Assembly: GCA_027293245.1 (NCBI GenBank)
Contig: JAPUFZ010000101.1
Span: 1-11,831 of the forward strand
Length of the DNA: 11,831 nucleotides
Reading direction: 5' to 3'
Origin: Gammaproteobacteria bacterium
GTDB lineage: Bacteria > Pseudomonadota > Gammaproteobacteria > GCA-001735895
Below the pieces are notes generated by a model. The model was not told where the DNA came from. It saw only the letters and a program-made list of their open reading frames with translations, and did no database searches. Both the position numbers and the translations under genes were made by a program. Positions 143 through 11,831 of the stretch are shown here, one piece after another (within the stretch, counting starts at the first letter, position 1; each line of letters opens with the position of its first letter).

Positions 143-724
143 TTACATTTTTAGAAAATTACCTAACAGATCGTGTCCGAATTCGGTCAATATGGATTCG
201 GGGTGAAACTGCACACCCTCAACGGCCAGTTCCCGGTGTCGCACGCCCATAATTTCATCGACACTACCATCCTCATTTTCGGTCCAGGCGGTTAACTCGA
301 GGCACTCAGGCATCGATTGTAGGTCGATTACCAGTGAATGGTACCGGGTTGCTTCAAAAGGGCTGGTTAATCCGGAAAATACACCGACACCGGTATGCTT
401 GACCATCGAAGTCTTGCCGTGCATTATTTTTTTCGCGTGAATAATGTTTCCGCCAAAAACCTGGCCAATACTCTGATGCCCCAGGCAAACCCCCAGTATT
501 GGTTTTACACCGGCCAATGCTCCAATCGCAGCCATTGAGACACCCGCCTCGTTTGGCGTACAGGGACCGGGTGAAACCATTATATGGCTAGCGTCATTGG
601 CAATCACTGCCTCGAGACTTAGCTGGTCGTTACGAACGACCTCGACCTCCGCTCCCAGTTCGCCAAGATACTGCACCAGGTTATAGGTGAACGAGTCGTA
701 GTTATCTATCATTAACACTTTCAT
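143..724 (-). CDS. trpG: Anthranilate synthase component II (glutamine amidotransferase subunit)
   Basis: This 193-residue protein is a stand-alone class I glutamine amidotransferase, the normal length for an unfused TrpG. It hydrolyses glutamine and passes ammonia to TrpE, which makes anthranilate from chorismate in the cytoplasm. Visible motifs are the N-terminal [14 protein letters not shown] (residues 7-20), the oxyanion-strand [11 protein letters not shown] (51-61), the nucleophile Cys80 in [10 protein letters not shown], and the catalytic His174/Glu176 in [10 protein letters not shown]. Similar proteins serve folate synthesis (PabA), and some bacteria use one subunit for both; the location directly behind trpE favours TrpG. 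The ATG overlaps the trpE stop in an ATGA (721-724). An AGGAG ribosome-binding site (733-737, 8 bases before the ATG) lies inside trpE, so coupling and independent initiation are both possible. Confidence 0.95.
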
Positions 725-2232
725 GACAGGGACTCCTGGCCAGGCGCGCAGGGGTCTCGAGCCGGTAGTCCCGACTCGGCCATTGCCACAGCCCGGAAAA
801 TCGCCCGCGCCTTACTCATTGTTTCTGCCCATTCGTTTTCTGGAACCGAATCATAAACAATACCAGCGCCGGCCTGAATATAGAGTTGCCCATCCTTGAT
901 CACTGCGGTGCGTATTGCAATCGCAGTATCCATATTACCACTCCAGGAAATATAACCCACAGCACCCGAATAAATGCCGCGTTTGACGGGTTCGAGTTCA
1001 TCTATTATTTCCATCGCTCGGATTTTTGGCGCACCAGAAACCGTTCCGGCCGGAAACGTCGCGCGCAATACATCCATCGCCGAGAGACCGGGTTTTAGCC
1101 TGCCTTCGACATTGGAAACGATGTGCATGACATGCGAATAGCGTTCAACTATCATTTTTTCAGTCAACTCGACACTACCGGTTTGACTGACTCGACCCGC
1201 ATCATTTCGACCCAGGTCGATTAGCATCAAGTGCTCTGCCAGCTCTTTCGGGTCGCCAAGTAATTCCTTTTCGAGTGCCAGATCACGCGCTGTATCCTTA
1301 TCCCGGGGCCGGGTACCCGCGATCGGTCGAACCGTAACTACCTGATCTTCCAGGCGCACCAGAATTTCAGGTGACGATCCAACCACAAAATGGTCACCCA
1401 GATTCAGGTAATACATATAAGGGGATGGATTGAGGCTGCGCAATGCGCGGTATAAATCGATTGGTTCAGTTCTAAATGGGATCGACAGGCGCTGTGATAA
1501 TACGATTTGCATGGCATCGCCATCGATGATGTATTGCCGGGCCTTATCAACTGCGGATTCAAATCCCTCGCGCGTAAACTCGGAGATAAAATCTTCTTCG
1601 CGCACCTTTTGCTGCACTGGCTTAGGCCGCCGGTTTAGTCGTGTTTCGAGTAGCTTGTTCTCGATCCGCGTCAATTGTTCCTGACCATCGGCCCAGCTTT
1701 CTCCCTGCGATGGATCAACATGCACAATGAGGAACATGCGCGAAGATAAATTATCAAAAACCACCAGTTCATCGCTCAACATTAACAGGATGTCGGGGGT
1801 ATGATGTTTATCGGGATTGGGACAATCGGCCAGTTTGGGTTCGACGTAGCGAATCGTATCGTAACCAAAGTAACCCACCAGCCCTCCATGAAATTTTGGC
1901 AGGCATTCGGCCTCGGCAACTTTGAAAGAATTCAGATAATCTTCGATGAATCGCAACGGGTCGTTGCTGTCTTCCTGACGAACTATGGCGCCGTCCACTT
2001 CGATCGTTACCTTGCTGCCATAAACCTTCAGTCGCGTGCTACAGGCCAGCCCGATAATGGAATAACGCCCCCATTTTTCTCCGCCCTGTACCGATTCGAA
2101 CAGGTAGGAATAGGGTTCGTTGGCTAGTTTCAAATAGGTACTGAGCGGCGTATCCAGATCGGCGAGCACTTCGCGCACCAGTGGAATACGGTTATATTTA
2201 TGCTTAATTTGATTAAATTGCTTAACATTCAT
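721..2232 (-). CDS. trpE: Anthranilate synthase component I
   Basis: This 503-residue chorismate-binding enzyme converts chorismate plus ammonia (from TrpG) to anthranilate, the first committed step of tryptophan synthesis. The N-terminal domain carries YSYLFESV (41-48), the counterpart of the LLES feedback-binding motif of TrpE proteins, so tryptophan inhibition is expected. The C-terminal catalytic domain has [12 protein letters not shown] (237-248), PIAGTRPR (303-310), the His335-containing [14 protein letters not shown] (331-344), [19 protein letters not shown] (393-411) and the terminal [11 protein letters not shown] region (about 452-462). Length and order fit ordinary TrpE; PabB is less likely given the N-terminal motif and the adjacent trpG-trpD. 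The start codon follows a weak GGA ribosome-binding site (2241-2243, 8 bases before the ATG). That site lies inside a possible leader-controlled structure. The downstream trpG overlaps it by 4 bases. Confidence 0.96.
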
Positions 2233-2250
2233 GGCAATGATCCAAACGGG

Positions 2251-2292
2251 TTAACAGGGTACAACGCAACAACAACAGCGGGAGATCACCAT
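2251..2292 (-). CDS. Cys-rich 13-codon frame upstream of trpE (tentative)
   Basis: An ATG-started frame reads MVISRCCCCVVPC and ends in TAA 18 bases before the trpE ATG. Five of its 13 residues are Cys, four consecutive (TGT TGT TGT TGC). Its ATG lies within the last codons of the Trp-containing frame at 2286-2339: the overlap ATGGTGA holds the start of one and the stop of the other, a layout compatible with re-initiation. No clear ribosome-binding site precedes it. Poly-Cys leader peptides are known in other bacteria as cysteine-responsive elements, but I know of none at trpE. The repeat could also be a simple TGT microsatellite with no coding role. Confidence 0.3.
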   Translation of the reverse strand: MVISRCCCCVVPC

Positions 2293-2339
2293 CGCCAGCA
2301 GATATTGATTACCTTGTCCTGTTTACGTTTTGAAATCAC
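2286..2339 (-). CDS. Candidate trp leader peptide with two Trp codons before its stop
   Basis: The frame from GTG (2339-2337) reads MISKRKQDKVINICWRW, 17 residues, then TGA. Two of the last three sense codons are TGG. Leader peptides that sense charged tRNA-Trp upstream of trp genes are short and have clustered Trp codons, and this frame lies between gph and trpE on the trpE strand. Weak points: the start is GTG, the AAGG at 2342-2345 is only two bases from it, and no transcription terminator follows. The Trp codons lie in the segment that can pair with the trpE ribosome-binding site, so a ribosome paused there would keep that site open. Function is inferred. Confidence 0.45.
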   Translation of the reverse strand: MISKRKQDKVINICWRW

Positions 2340-2353
2340 TGCCTTAGTAAATC

Positions 2354-3025
2354 CTAGATAAGCATTTCGAGTTCGGTCATCGAATCTATCACAGCATCCG
2401 GCCCATATCTATGAATATCTTCACCATGGTTGTAACCGTAGCTGGTGCAGATGATCTGGAATCCGGCCGCCCTGGCAGCCCGCACGTCATTACTCGAATC
2501 GCCAATCATCAATGACTGCAATGGATCGACCTGCATGTTTTGTGCCGCAAACAGTAGCGGTAGCGGGTCGGGCTTTAGTTTCGGCGTATCATCACCGCAA
2601 ACGGTTTCTTCAAAGTATTGGGTCAGCCCAAGATCCCGCAGCAGGGGATGAGTAAACTCGGCTGCCTTGTTGGTAACACAACCCATCCGATATCCGCGGC
2701 TGCGCAGATATTCCAGGCCATGCAATACACCCGTGTACAACCGACTGCGGGTCGAGGTATTGTGCGCGTAGAGTGATTTGAATATCGGCAGCGCCCGGTT
2801 ATAGAGTGACTCGTCGGGTTCGCCCTCATCGGCATTGACCAGTGCACGTTTGACCAGGCGTTCGATACCGTTACCAACCCAACGCCGCACGGCTACTTCG
2901 CCTCGATCAGGGATAGCCAGTTGCCCCAGCATTGCATCGATACAGTAAGCCAGATCGGGCACACTATCGACCAGGGTACCATCGATATCGATTAGCACCA
3001 TTTCGGGGATTTTTATCGAACTCAA
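2354..3025 (-). CDS. gph: Phosphoglycolate phosphatase (HAD superfamily)
   Basis: This HAD-family phosphatase is up to 223 residues long. Numbered from the TTG at 3025, motif I is DIDGT with Asp13 (nucleophile) and Asp15, motif II is Thr118 in VTNK, motif III is Lys151 in KLKPDP, and motif IV is GDSSND with Asp176 and Asp180. A helical cap domain lies between motifs I and II (about 20-95). Gph removes phosphate from 2-phosphoglycolate, a product of oxidative DNA damage repair and related side reactions. The assignment over other HAD phosphatases rests on family likeness and the conserved rpe-gph-trpE order. The start is uncertain: TTG at 3025 overlaps the rpe stop as TTGA, which would favour coupling. 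The ATG at 3001 (residue 9) would also leave motif I intact. Neither has a well-spaced ribosome-binding site. Confidence 0.88.
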
Positions 3026-4250: not shown

Positions 4251-4331
4251 AATCCGCGCCATTGTGGCAAAGCCATTCACTCTTGTAAAGGATACCCCCC
4301 GCAGCTTAATCGATGCTGAATACCTGGTTAT

Positions 4332-8807: not shown

Positions 8808-9599
8808 CTATTTTGCACGCTTCAACGATTGCGAACGGAAATCACGATCCGAAATACCGGTCTGGAACTGGTAGTCGGTCCATTCGAGTGTGGTACCTTT
8901 GCCAGTTAAATGATTCGCCATTTCCATTTTTCCGGGACGCCAGTAATGCCCTAAATATTGCTTGAAATCGCTCGCTGACAAAGTCTTTAGCAGGGCTCTC
9001 TTGCGGTCATAAAAATCAACTTTTACCAGTCGATATGCCTCTTTATCCACCCAGGCAACCTGTTTCGTGTAGCCCGAGTATTTGTACTCAGGAAAGCGTT
9101 CGATTACATAACACTGCCAATCACCGCATGCCTCTTCGCGCAAAAACCTGTAGCTATACTTTTCCACCTCCTGCGACCCCAGGTCCTCGAAAGCGAAGGT
9201 GCTGCCCATAAACGGCCCCGATTTATTACGCGAATTGATGCGCTTCACCTTTTTTAAAGCCGGCAGGTAAAGCCACTGATCATCAGGCTCAAGCCCGTGC
9301 GAGTAAGTCAGCAATGCCGTGCCCTTGACGTCGGCTGGTTGATCGAAAATAGACAGGTTCTTATCGCCATCACCCTCCACTTCAAGCGTTTTAATACGGA
9401 TAACACGGGTCGATGTATCACCATTTTTGTTCCTCAGAATCATCAACATATTGGCAGTAAAGTCGATAAAACCCTTGTCGTAGTCATCTGCCGCGATCGC
9501 GATCTCCAGGCCTTTTTGCTCCGCGCTCTGGGCGTATAGAACAGTCGGCAACAGCAGGACCGTGATAATCGAGACGATAACAATTTTAGAATTAAACAT
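8808..9599 (-). CDS. Periplasmic LolA-like protein (outer membrane lipoprotein-sorting protein family)
   Basis: A 263-residue protein with a signal peptide (1-23, cut near VLYA before QSAEQ) and no lipobox, so probably soluble in the periplasm. The strands with DFTANMLMILRNKNGD (46-61), LSIFDQPADVKGTALL (82-97), DDQWLYLPALKKVKRI (106-121) and GPFMGSTFAFEDLG (128-141) fit the LolA-like family annotated as outer membrane lipoprotein-sorting proteins, half-barrel folds with a hydrophobic cavity. Cys158 and Cys163 may form a disulphide. True LolA carries lipoproteins; this branch usually sits next to RND/MMPL transporters and more likely carries lipid or other hydrophobic cargo. It has a strong AAGGAG site seven bases upstream (9607-9612) and overlaps the transporter gene by eight bases. 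Confidence 0.85.
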   Translation of the reverse strand: MFNSKIVIVSIITVLLLPTVLYAQSAEQKGLEIAIAADDYDKGFIDFTANMLMILRNKNGDTSTRVIRIKTLEVEGDGDKNLSIFDQPADVKGTALLTYSHGLEPDDQWLYLPALKKVKRINSRNKSGPFMGSTFAFEDLGSQEVEKYSYRFLREEACGDWQCYVIERFPEYKYSGYTKQVAWVDKEAYRLVKVDFYDRKRALLKTLSASDFKQYLGHYWRPGKMEMANHLTGKGTTLEWTDYQFQTGISDRDFRSQSLKRAK

Positions 9600-11831
9600 G
9601 ACTATGCTCCTTGCCGTCTAAGGCCATTAGCAATGGGGGTAATAACAGGAAATCGGCAATAATCGCAAATATGATGGTCACCGCGGTCATGAACGCCATA
9701 TTGGAGTTCAACTGAAAGGCGGAAAAGGTCAATACGAAAAACCCGGCAATCAATACCAGCGAAGTCACCACCAGTGCGAGCCCTACGGTATTGAATGCAT
9801 AGCGCACGGCATCCTGTGAATTCAGGCCTTTTTCGCGCCGGGCACGCAAATACTTACTCAGGAAGTGTACGGTATCGTCGACTACGATACCGAGCGTCAT
9901 GCCGGTCACTACCGACAGGGCCAAACCGATCTGACCTACCACGATACCCCATGCGCCGAAAGCCAGGGCCGCTGGAATCAGGTTAGGAATCAAGCTCAAT
10001 AGCCCGATTTTGAGTGACCGCAGGGCGAAGATGAGAATTAACGATATCAGTATCAACGCTATCGTGGTACCGAGCAGCATACTCCTGATATTACGTGCGC
10101 CAATATGACTGAACATCAGGGTTGGACTCGCGCCTTCGTTATGCATCGCGACCGGCGCATTATTCCTGAGCCACTGCTGCGCGCGTTGTTCCAGCGCAAG
10201 TACCGAGCGGGTGGTCATATTGCGCAACATGACTGTCATTCGGGTCGCCGATTTGTCAATATTAATCTGGTTGTTGAGGTCAAGCCCATAGGGCAATGAC
10301 ATTTCATATAACAACAGGTACTGTGCGGCCAGCTCACGTTGTTCGGGCAGCCGGTACCAGGATGGATCGTCGCCATGCATACTTCGATTCAGTCGTCTGA
10401 AAGTATCGGTCAGGACATTGACGTGTATCACTTCAGGTTGTGAACGATACCAGTTGGCAAATTTATCTACATTGCGCAAAAACTCCGGCTCACTGACACC
10501 ACCTTCTTGCCCGGACTTTAATGAATAGCCAATCAAATAGAGGCCACTCAAATTCTCCGAGGCAAAATCGGCATCGCGCCGAAACTCGATTGTTTCACTG
10601 AAATACTTGACGAAGTCATCATTCAATTCATTTAGTGGCACAAAAGAAATCAATAGCAGGCTACCTGCACCCATGATTAACAGCAGTCGAGTTCGCTTCG
10701 CGATAACGAATTCGGCGAATCTACCCATTAACCTGCTCGAAGTGGTTTCCTGCACCTTTTGCCTGTCCGGCAATATCATCATCAGCGCAGGCAGGAAAGT
10801 CACGCTGAGCACGAAAGCAATTATCACGCCCATCGCGACAATATTGCCAAGGTCATGAAATGGCGGTGCATCGGAAAAATTCATGCTTAAAAATCCAATT
10901 GCGGTAGTCACGCTGGTGAGAAACACCGGTTGCATATTGACCCGGATACTGTCTACCATCGAATCGTGTTTCGTCTCTCCTCGGCGCATCGACAGCACAT
11001 AATTCATCAATACATGAACACTATCGGCAATCGCCATGGTAGGTATGATCATGACTGCGGCAAACGAGGGTGGTGTGAGCGCAATGCCGAACCATCCGGC
11101 AAGACCCATGGCGCCAATTATCGAAAAAATAATGATCGCGAAGGTAGCAAAGGTTCCACTCAAGCCCTTAACCCAGAAAAACAGGACAATTACAAAGGCG
11201 ATCAGCATGATCGGAAACAAGGTCGACATATCGTATTGACTGGCTTCAGGAAAAGCCTGGTTCATCATGATGATGCCAGTCAATTTAACTTCGATGTCTG
11301 GAAAGGCCTGACGAAACTGGCCCCGCATTTCACGGACGTAGGACACCACTTCAGGATTTTCGACGATTGGATTGACGCCGGGTAATTCGATCGTGATATT
11401 GATGCCGGTTACATGCGCGCTGGGTGATACCAGGCGGTTGATTAGTACCGGTTCATTCAATGCGATATCGCGAATGCTTGCGAGCTCGTCTTCACTTAGA
11501 TTGCCGGGTTCGAAGGCAAGGTCCGCGACGATTAAATCGTCTTCAACGGCTGAAGTGTGCTGATAATTGGTGAGTGACTCAACCCGACTCGAATGCGGTG
11601 TTTGCCAGGCCCTGTCGGTCACCCAGGCAACAGCTTCCAGGGTTTCGTTGCTAAATACTTCGCCACTTTTGGGGACCAGTAAAAACACCACGTTGTCATC
11701 TTTAGAATAGGTATCCTGCAAATCTTCGAAGGCAACCAGTTGTGGATTGTCCTCGCCGAAAAATACCCGGTAATCGTTGGTGAAAGTCAGGAACTGGGCA
11801 CCAAATCCCATCGCCCCAATAGCCACAATGG
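9592..11831 (-). CDS. RND-superfamily (MMPL-type) inner-membrane transporter, 5' end missing
   Basis: At least 744 residues; the frame runs off the right edge, so the true start and part of the first membrane helix are outside. Numbered from 11826, it shows the twofold RND plan. The end of helix 1 (1-13) is followed by a periplasmic domain (14-200). Helices lie near 203-219, 225-246, 252-275, 299-316 and 327-352, then helix 7 (379-396), a second periplasmic domain (397-578), and helices near 581-602, 608-625, 627-653, 679-701 and 710-734. Asp268 in AIADSVHVLMNY and Asp650/Asp651 in GIVVDDTVHFL lie at the paired intramembrane acidic positions linked to proton coupling. With about 12 helices and two modest loops it resembles MMPL/HpnN-type exporters of hydrophobic molecules, not AcrB. 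Substrate unknown. Confidence 0.9.
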   Translation of the reverse strand, partial: IVAIGAMGFGAQFLTFTNDYRVFFGEDNPQLVAFEDLQDTYSKDDNVVFLLVPKSGEVFSNETLEAVAWVTDRAWQTPHSSRVESLTNYQHTSAVEDDLIVADLAFEPGNLSEDELASIRDIALNEPVLINRLVSPSAHVTGINITIELPGVNPIVENPEVVSYVREMRGQFRQAFPDIEVKLTGIIMMNQAFPEASQYDMSTLFPIMLIAFVIVLFFWVKGLSGTFATFAIIIFSIIGAMGLAGWFGIALTPPSFAAVMIIPTMAIADSVHVLMNYVLSMRRGETKHDSMVDSIRVNMQPVFLTSVTTAIGFLSMNFSDAPPFHDLGNIVAMGVIIAFVLSVTFLPALMMILPDRQKVQETTSSRLMGRFAEFVIAKRTRLLLIMGAGSLLLISFVPLNELNDDFVKYFSETIEFRRDADFASENLSGLYLIGYSLKSGQEGGVSEPEFLRNVDKFANWYRSQPEVIHVNVLTDTFRRLNRSMHGDDPSWYRLPEQRELAAQYLLLYEMSLPYGLDLNNQINIDKSATRMTVMLRNMTTRSVLALEQRAQQWLRNNAPVAMHNEGASPTLMFSHIGARNIRSMLLGTTIALILISLILIFALRSLKIGLLSLIPNLIPAALAFGAWGIVVGQIGLALSVVTGMTLGIVVDDTVHFLSKYLRARREKGLNSQDAVRYAFNTVGLALVVTSLVLIAGFFVLTFSAFQLNSNMAFMTAVTIIFAIIADFLLLPPLLMALDGKEHSHV

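Follow-up and report, generated by a model that had tools for sequence, protein, structure and literature searches.

The stretch of DNA analysed here (11,831 nucleotides (nt); hereafter, the window) carries the genes rpe, gph, trpE and trpG in this order along its minus strand, and the 121-nt gap between gph and trpE contains a short open reading frame (ORF) that ends in Trp codons (Table 1). Elsewhere in the window, an RND-type transporter ORF at 9592-11826 (minus) has only sub-cut-off NCBIfam matches (HAE3/HpnN-like), and the ORF that adjoins it at 8808-9599 (minus) has no NCBIfam match.

Table 1. Features of the trpE leader and its neighbours in the window.
Feature	Position	Strand	Basis or remark
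rpe	3759-3022	minus	named by NCBIfam
gph, phosphoglycolate phosphatase, neighbour 5′ of the leader	2354..3025	minus	NCBIfam NF009695 and TIGR01449, above cut-off
Promoter-like extended -10, TGA-TAGATT, inside gph 3′ end	2383..2391	minus	conserved in 35/35 order genomes
Hairpin of the whole leader, beginning four bases 5′ of the leader start and ending one base short of the trpE ATG	2233..2343	minus	minimum free energy -43.4 kcal/mol
P1 5′ arm, leader start codon region	2333..2343	minus	pairs with 2233-2243
Leader peptide ORF, GTG start, VISKRKQDKVINICWRW-stop, 17 codons and TGA	2286..2339	minus	homologues in 36/36 complete order leaders
P2 5′ arm (2330-2326 and 2323-2318), within leader ORF	2318..2330	minus	folding, arm swaps
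P3 5′ arm	2304..2317	minus	folding
Leader Trp codon 15 (TGG)	2295..2297	minus	sequence
Leader Trp codon 17 (TGG), immediately 5′ of the stop	2289..2291	minus	sequence
Leader stop TGA	2286..2288	minus	TAA or TAG in some relatives
P3 3′ arm	2261..2273	minus	folding
P2 3′ arm (2248-2244 and 2258-2253)	2244..2258	minus	folding, arm swaps
P1 3′ arm, trpE ribosome-binding site (GGA) and spacer to ATG	2233..2243	minus	folding, arm tests
trpE, anthranilate synthase component I, regulated gene	721..2232	minus	NCBIfam TIGR00564, above cut-off
trpG, next gene of the operon after trpE	143..724	minus	NCBIfam TIGR00566, above cut-off

A preliminary description of this DNA had read a GTG frame at 2339-2286, with TGG codons at 2297-2295 and 2291-2289, that ends Cys-Trp-Arg-Trp-stop. 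The frame is there exactly as described, and our survey of related genomes shows that it is conserved. In the genome set used, the order of the window amounts to one family, with 41 genomes in three genera. A trpE match was found in 38 of the 41 genomes searched (all except G007, G011 and G061) and a complete leader in 36, with G009 and G026 excluded at contigs that end within trpE or the leader; we group these genomes under our own labels as clades A (8, including the window's), B (19), C (7) and D (2). All 36 carry an ORF in the corresponding position; it has 16-18 codons, and its stop lies 47-67 nt from trpE. The leaders end in WRW or WRWW followed by the stop, with the single exception of G032 (WRRW), so that the W-x-W-stop frame is kept in relatives, as the preliminary description had asked of a real leader; the terminal Trp cluster begins at codon 14 in 4 genomes and at codon 15 in 32. 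The N-terminal parts diverge strongly among clades and the TGG-CGA-TGG end is nearly constant. A short ORF with clustered Trp codons, kept in frame in 36/36 order genomes, is what characterizes Trp leader-peptide attenuators in general, and the conserved Trp leader peptide ORF upstream of trpE is real.

The GTG start is peculiar to the window, the other 35 order leaders starting with ATG. Shine-Dalgarno matches of -4 kcal/mol or lower are found for the leader in just 3/36 order genomes, the window included, and for trpE in 1/36; a poor leader site therefore appears typical of the group. The Arg codon between the Trp codons (2292-2294 in the window, minus) is CGA in 36/36 aligned order leaders, and Pseudomonas leaders use CGT or CGC for the same residue; CGA may have a role in the tip hairpin, or may act as a slow codon. 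A pattern search for further leaders in the window's own genome, which required ATG and missed the window's GTG leader, returned at least three matches. In one relative (G005), an apparent second leader copy was rejected: its contig stops at base 4292, right after the copy, which we accordingly read as the end of this contig overlapping the trpE contig.

Upstream of the leader, a block GCTGTGnTAGATTC can be read as an extended -10 element; it is located 28-46 nt 5′ of the leader start in 35/35 testable order genomes (30 by a strict pattern and 5 by TAGATT at -144 or -145 from trpE; the contig of G008 is too short). A simple sigma-70 scan of the window returned no full promoter. From the promoter-like block we infer a transcription start near 2376, and by the same consensus argument the leader probably lies inside the trpE transcript, as the preliminary description had supposed. 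Wherever gph is upstream, the block sits in gph codons; gph was not found 5′ of the clade B leaders searched (up to 1500 nt, contig permitting), and the block is present there too. The promoter has apparently been kept within a coding end, also after the loss of that coding end. In the window, the block GCTGTGATAGATTC (2382-2395, minus) lies within the gph codons Ala-Val-Ile-Asp-Ser and is nearly invariant in relatives. A TrpR repressor in place of leader control was considered and rejected: Pfam PF01371 gave matches in the control genomes of E. coli and B. subtilis and none in the 41 order genomes, so that Trp control may rest mainly on the leader.

Folding at minimum energy gives a single nested hairpin: the leader ORF forms the 5′ arm, the trpE ribosome-binding site (RBS) lies in the 3′ arm and the Trp codons are placed near the tip. 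The window hairpin (2343-2233) has a z-score of -5.40, with 0/200 dinucleotide shuffles as good, and the fold of the 139-nt leader has a z-score of -3.72, again with 0/200 shuffles as good, bearing out the earlier expectation that the folding energy would beat that of shuffled sequence. At the base of the hairpin, the duplex of 2343-2333 with 2243-2233 (z -5.52) makes the leader start region a stronger RBS partner in the window than the Trp-codon strand, and the leader's own start codon has a probability of 1.00 of pairing with the trpE start region.

The preliminary description had proposed a different geometry, in which the Trp-codon strand (2296-2283) sequesters the RBS (2243-2233) and a ribosome stalled on the Trp codons lets an alternative helix (2330-2318 with 2258-2244) form and free it. 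The Trp-codon pairing is feasible and strong in the window (duplex -14.3 kcal/mol, z -3.55 against shuffled RBS), and the alternative helix does appear in the minimum-energy fold. There, however, it is the mid-part of the closed hairpin that buries the RBS: the RBS pairing of 2343-2333 is continuous with it, so the supposed open helix does not free the RBS. In the ensembles of 36/36 order genomes, the partner of the RBS is the 5′ region of the leader (per-genome mean probability 0.47-0.88), whereas pairing of the RBS with the Trp-codon strand has a probability of 0.00 in all 36. The Trp-codon duplex is above shuffles (z < -1.65) in 7/36 genomes, the window among these. Tested by folding ensembles, by swapping arms and against shuffles, a Trp-codon switch is not conserved, and we regard that geometry as improbable.

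The hairpin with the leader start over the trpE start recurs in the order. Its mean z-score is -3.56, with 34/36 genomes below -1.65 (the exceptions are G014 at -0.36 and G058 at -1.56), and in 34/36 the leader's start codon itself pairs with the trpE start region at p > 0.4. MAFFT fails on the P1 3′ arm across clades, and we therefore used arm swaps and clade-wise alifold instead of a single covariation count. The two arms fit with a mean of -25.2 kcal/mol within their own genome versus -14.8 kcal/mol across clades. For the full helix, the observed fit is reached by 0/20000 swaps, within-clade or overall, and the same holds for P2 alone. P1 alone reaches its fit in 0/20000 overall swaps, but in 9777/20000 within-clade swaps, and another clade's 3′ arm fits at least equally well in 10/36 genomes. 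Clade-wise alifold finds the long helix in clades A, B and C, with both-sided changes at 7/30 pairs in A (7/8 genomes, G014 omitted for an insertion and its weak fold), 4/29 in B and 7/26 in C. The co-variation that the preliminary description had suggested looking for in its two helices is found for P2 within clades; the Trp-codon pairing with the RBS is hardly better than within-clade swaps, of which 1280/20000 do as well. A short ORF with a GTG start and a weak Shine-Dalgarno match might be a chance ORF next to a chance hairpin, without function; set against the 36/36 conservation of the ORF, the fold z-scores and the arm-swap results, this explanation is scarcely credible.

Beyond the order, we defined leaders as having at least two Trp in the last six residues, and found them at 50 of 80 named loci, of which two (L032 and L033) belong to the order. 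Where the gap from leader stop to trpE is short (up to 66 nt), pairing of the leader start with the RBS at z < -2 is found in 8/14 named loci, or 6/12 without the two order members, including metagenome-assembled genomes (MAGs) of Thiotrichales, Chromatiales, Arenicellales and Betaproteobacteria, among others. Among long-gap named loci, which are mostly Pseudomonas-type MKVIKALARWRWRA, it is found in 1/36 (mean z 0.08). A second sample covered the class outside the order; it consists of the top 80 of 213 genomes with a trpE match and is therefore biased to similar TrpE. A Trp-rich leader is present in 22/80 of these (19 short-gap and 3 long-gap), and a leader with two Trp in 0/7 additional genomes outside the order, giving 22/87 in all. 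Among the short-gap leaders, 17/19 have their 5′ region paired with the RBS (p > 0.4) and 14/19 have z < -2; among the long-gap leaders, 0/3 do. The start codon itself is paired (p > 0.4) in 12/19 short-gap class leaders versus 1/10 Pseudomonas-type leaders, and the terminal Trp cluster begins at codon 11-16 in the former and at codon 10 in ten Pseudomonas-type leaders. The class sample and the named loci may overlap in a few cases (L225 and L051 share a leader peptide).

Outside the order, RBS pairing accompanies the short-gap layout in these folds (17/19 at p > 0.4, compared with 1/36 long-gap loci at z < -2). Single-Trp leaders in Thiogranum, Thiobacillus and Hydrogenophilales MAGs (L036, L096 and L106) also fold onto the trpE start, with z-scores of -3.3, -2.7 and -3.4, suggesting that the layout may be wider than counted; these loci stand outside both leader counts and were folded among 27 loci picked by eye, from which we draw no rate.

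A terminator scan found no U-run terminator in the window, in agreement with the preliminary description, and a looser scan found one weak site, a hairpin of -5.6 kcal/mol before a GUU-repeat tract. In this looser scan, which is our own, a terminator-like site is a hairpin followed by at least 5 T of 8, and the expectation comes from shuffles. Such sites are found in 17/19 genomes of clade B (5.5 expected), 6/7 of C (1.4), 4/8 of A (2.4) and 0/2 of D (0.1), as well as in 8/19 of the short-gap class sample (3.3) and 4/35 of the long-gap set (8.2). With at least 6 T, the counts are 15/19 in B (1.2 expected), 3/7 in C (0.3), 5/19 in the short-gap class sample (0.7) and 3/35 in the long-gap set (1.9), from which one of the 36 loci (L052, a chance-looking TTG ORF) was omitted. 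The long-gap set includes Pseudomonas leaders that reportedly attenuate, and its low score means that the scan may miss real terminators. In clade B leaders (L007 and others), the second Trp codon and the stop are enclosed by a tip hairpin, GCGAU-GGUG-AUCGC, which is followed by a U-rich stretch.

The enriched U-tracts suggest that control in clades B and C may be partly or mainly transcriptional, and they speak for transcription attenuation, in which the leader hairpin or its upper part would halt RNA polymerase, a Trp-stalled ribosome would prevent the hairpin and the RBS pairing would be secondary; termination would be intrinsic in the sister clades, and in the window it would be weak or aided by Rho. 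Textbooks use trp attenuation as their example of a gene controlled by early termination of transcription, and classic trp leaders work in this way. Against this reading, the terminator scan is negative in the window, sites with at least 6 T number 2/8 in clade A (0.7 expected) and 0/2 in D, no separate antiterminator is seen in the folds examined, and the helix runs past any terminator to the trpE start in 36/36 genomes. We consider transcription attenuation the main rival, though an unlikely one; transcription control, alone or added, may operate, most of all in clade B. Clades A and B have the hairpin in common and differ in the U-tract, offering a natural comparison of a regulator shifting between transcription and translation.

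With some confidence, we favour ribosome-mediated tryptophan attenuation, which in the window most likely acts on the initiation of trpE translation. Sequestration of the RBS, as expected of a translational attenuator, is supported by folding and co-variation, and its opening by leader translation is modelled. The default fold would shut the leader start and the trpE start in one helix. With ample Trp-tRNA, a ribosome loaded on the nascent leader would finish and depart, and the hairpin would close, silencing both trpE and the leader. With scarce Trp-tRNA, the ribosome would stall at codons 15-17, where the hairpin tip could not form, and a queued or initiating second ribosome would cover the remaining 5′ arm and leave the trpE site free. 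This last step is the least certain. In our model, opening the RBS costs a mean of 11.5 kcal/mol with no ribosome (14.5 in the window) and 10.1 kcal/mol (12.7 in the window) with a ribosome at the first Trp and the helix closing around it; with stalled and queued ribosomes, the mean is 4.9 kcal/mol (4.1 in the window). The mean is also 4.9 kcal/mol if the helix cannot close around the first ribosome. A lone stalled ribosome hardly cuts the cost if the helix can close around it, and we therefore propose that the stalled ribosome acts jointly with a second one that is initiating or queued. Points that weigh against the favoured reading are the enriched U-tracts of clades B and C, the within-clade swap result for P1, the 10/36 genomes that a foreign 3′ arm fits equally well, the weak fold of G014 and, beyond the order, the pairing of the start codon itself in just 12/19 short-gap leaders and the presence of a Trp-rich leader in only 22/87 genomes. 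The leader would be a clean test of whether queued ribosomes, beyond the stalled one, set such a switch.

The central idea of the preliminary description, a Trp leader that acts on the trpE RBS and not through a clear terminator in the window, is upheld by this comparison of sequences, and its interpretation as a whole is partly supported. A further way to couple the two genes would be reinitiation at trpE by ribosomes that end at the leader stop. The distance from stop to trpE leaves room for this, and excerpts of PMC4833913 propose reinitiation after leader ORFs; in the same excerpts, however, the proposal applies to short distances, with a peak at 10-11 bp. Reinitiation would be expected to boost trpE at plentiful Trp, the wrong sense, and leaves the co-varying arms unexplained, making it very improbable.

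Returning to the favoured attenuator, the shared helix means that the closed hairpin would silence both sensor and target. We tentatively extend this to a self-locking translational trp latch common to many Gammaproteobacteria (in the GTDB sense, Betaproteobacteria included), a generalization that we think has a lesser though real chance of being right. The latch would be open only while Trp-stalled ribosomes and one queued behind fill the whole leader. If true, it would replace the terminator/antiterminator switch, and part of trp regulation across several proteobacterial orders would be translational and would escape terminator-based searches; excerpts of one screen (PMC2965389) include its own statement that it does not detect translational attenuators.

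Among known systems, the leader resembles that of E. coli trpL (Rfam Trp_leader) in that a short peptide with neighbouring Trp codons is encoded ahead of trpE and, in our proposal, charged Trp-tRNA is sensed via a stalled ribosome. E. coli-type trpL switches between an antiterminator and a U-run terminator, whereas the window has a single long hairpin reaching the trpE start, and no U-run intrinsic terminator was found there between leader and trpE. At the Rfam gathering threshold, the window and 12 related loci gave no matches; a permissive search of 2200-2420 gave one weak unrelated match, and Rfam membership was rejected. Attenuation at trpE of Pseudomonas putida was reportedly described by Olekhnovich and Gussin in 2001. 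As in the Pseudomonas loci analysed here (leader MKVIKALARWRWRA), a leader ending in RWRW lies upstream of trpE, but the Pseudomonas-type leader differs in its stop about 70 nt upstream and its first Trp at codon 10 (ten loci), and long-gap loci of several genera, the Pseudomonas-type included, are with one exception in 36 (z < -2) without the pairing of leader start and RBS seen in the window. In B. subtilis rtpA (anti-TRAP), Trp codons in a leader ORF likewise govern how the gene that follows is translated; a ribosome at the leader stop is close enough to the rtpA start to mask it, and that system is not known to have a long hairpin built from the ORF itself, unlike the window.

Translational control by a stalled leader ribosome is also proposed for erm: according to excerpts of PMC5118997, such a ribosome would open a stem-loop that keeps the following gene from being translated. 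The erm attenuators sense macrolides; here the signal would be an amino acid, and the leader start codon is buried with the target start. Our search of the open-licence literature (subscription papers being outside its scope) returned no description of a trpE layout like this one, and the nearest printed idea that we found is the LEU element of actinobacterial leuA, as given in excerpts of PMC1262725. In that account, a run of Leu codons pairs with the Shine-Dalgarno box, a pseudoknot is proposed, and mutation of the Leu codons reportedly left regulation unchanged. The two systems share a leader with regulatory codons, a base stem over the target Shine-Dalgarno and no obvious terminator. Pairing of the codon run with the Shine-Dalgarno is not what we observe (probability 0.00 in 36/36 genomes; duplex above shuffles in 7/36): unlike the LEU element as excerpted (PMC1262725), the leader start pairs with the Shine-Dalgarno here, and the Trp codons lie near the tip. 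Judged from its sequence, the trpE leader is probably a new form of amino-acid leader-peptide attenuation, with a translational output.
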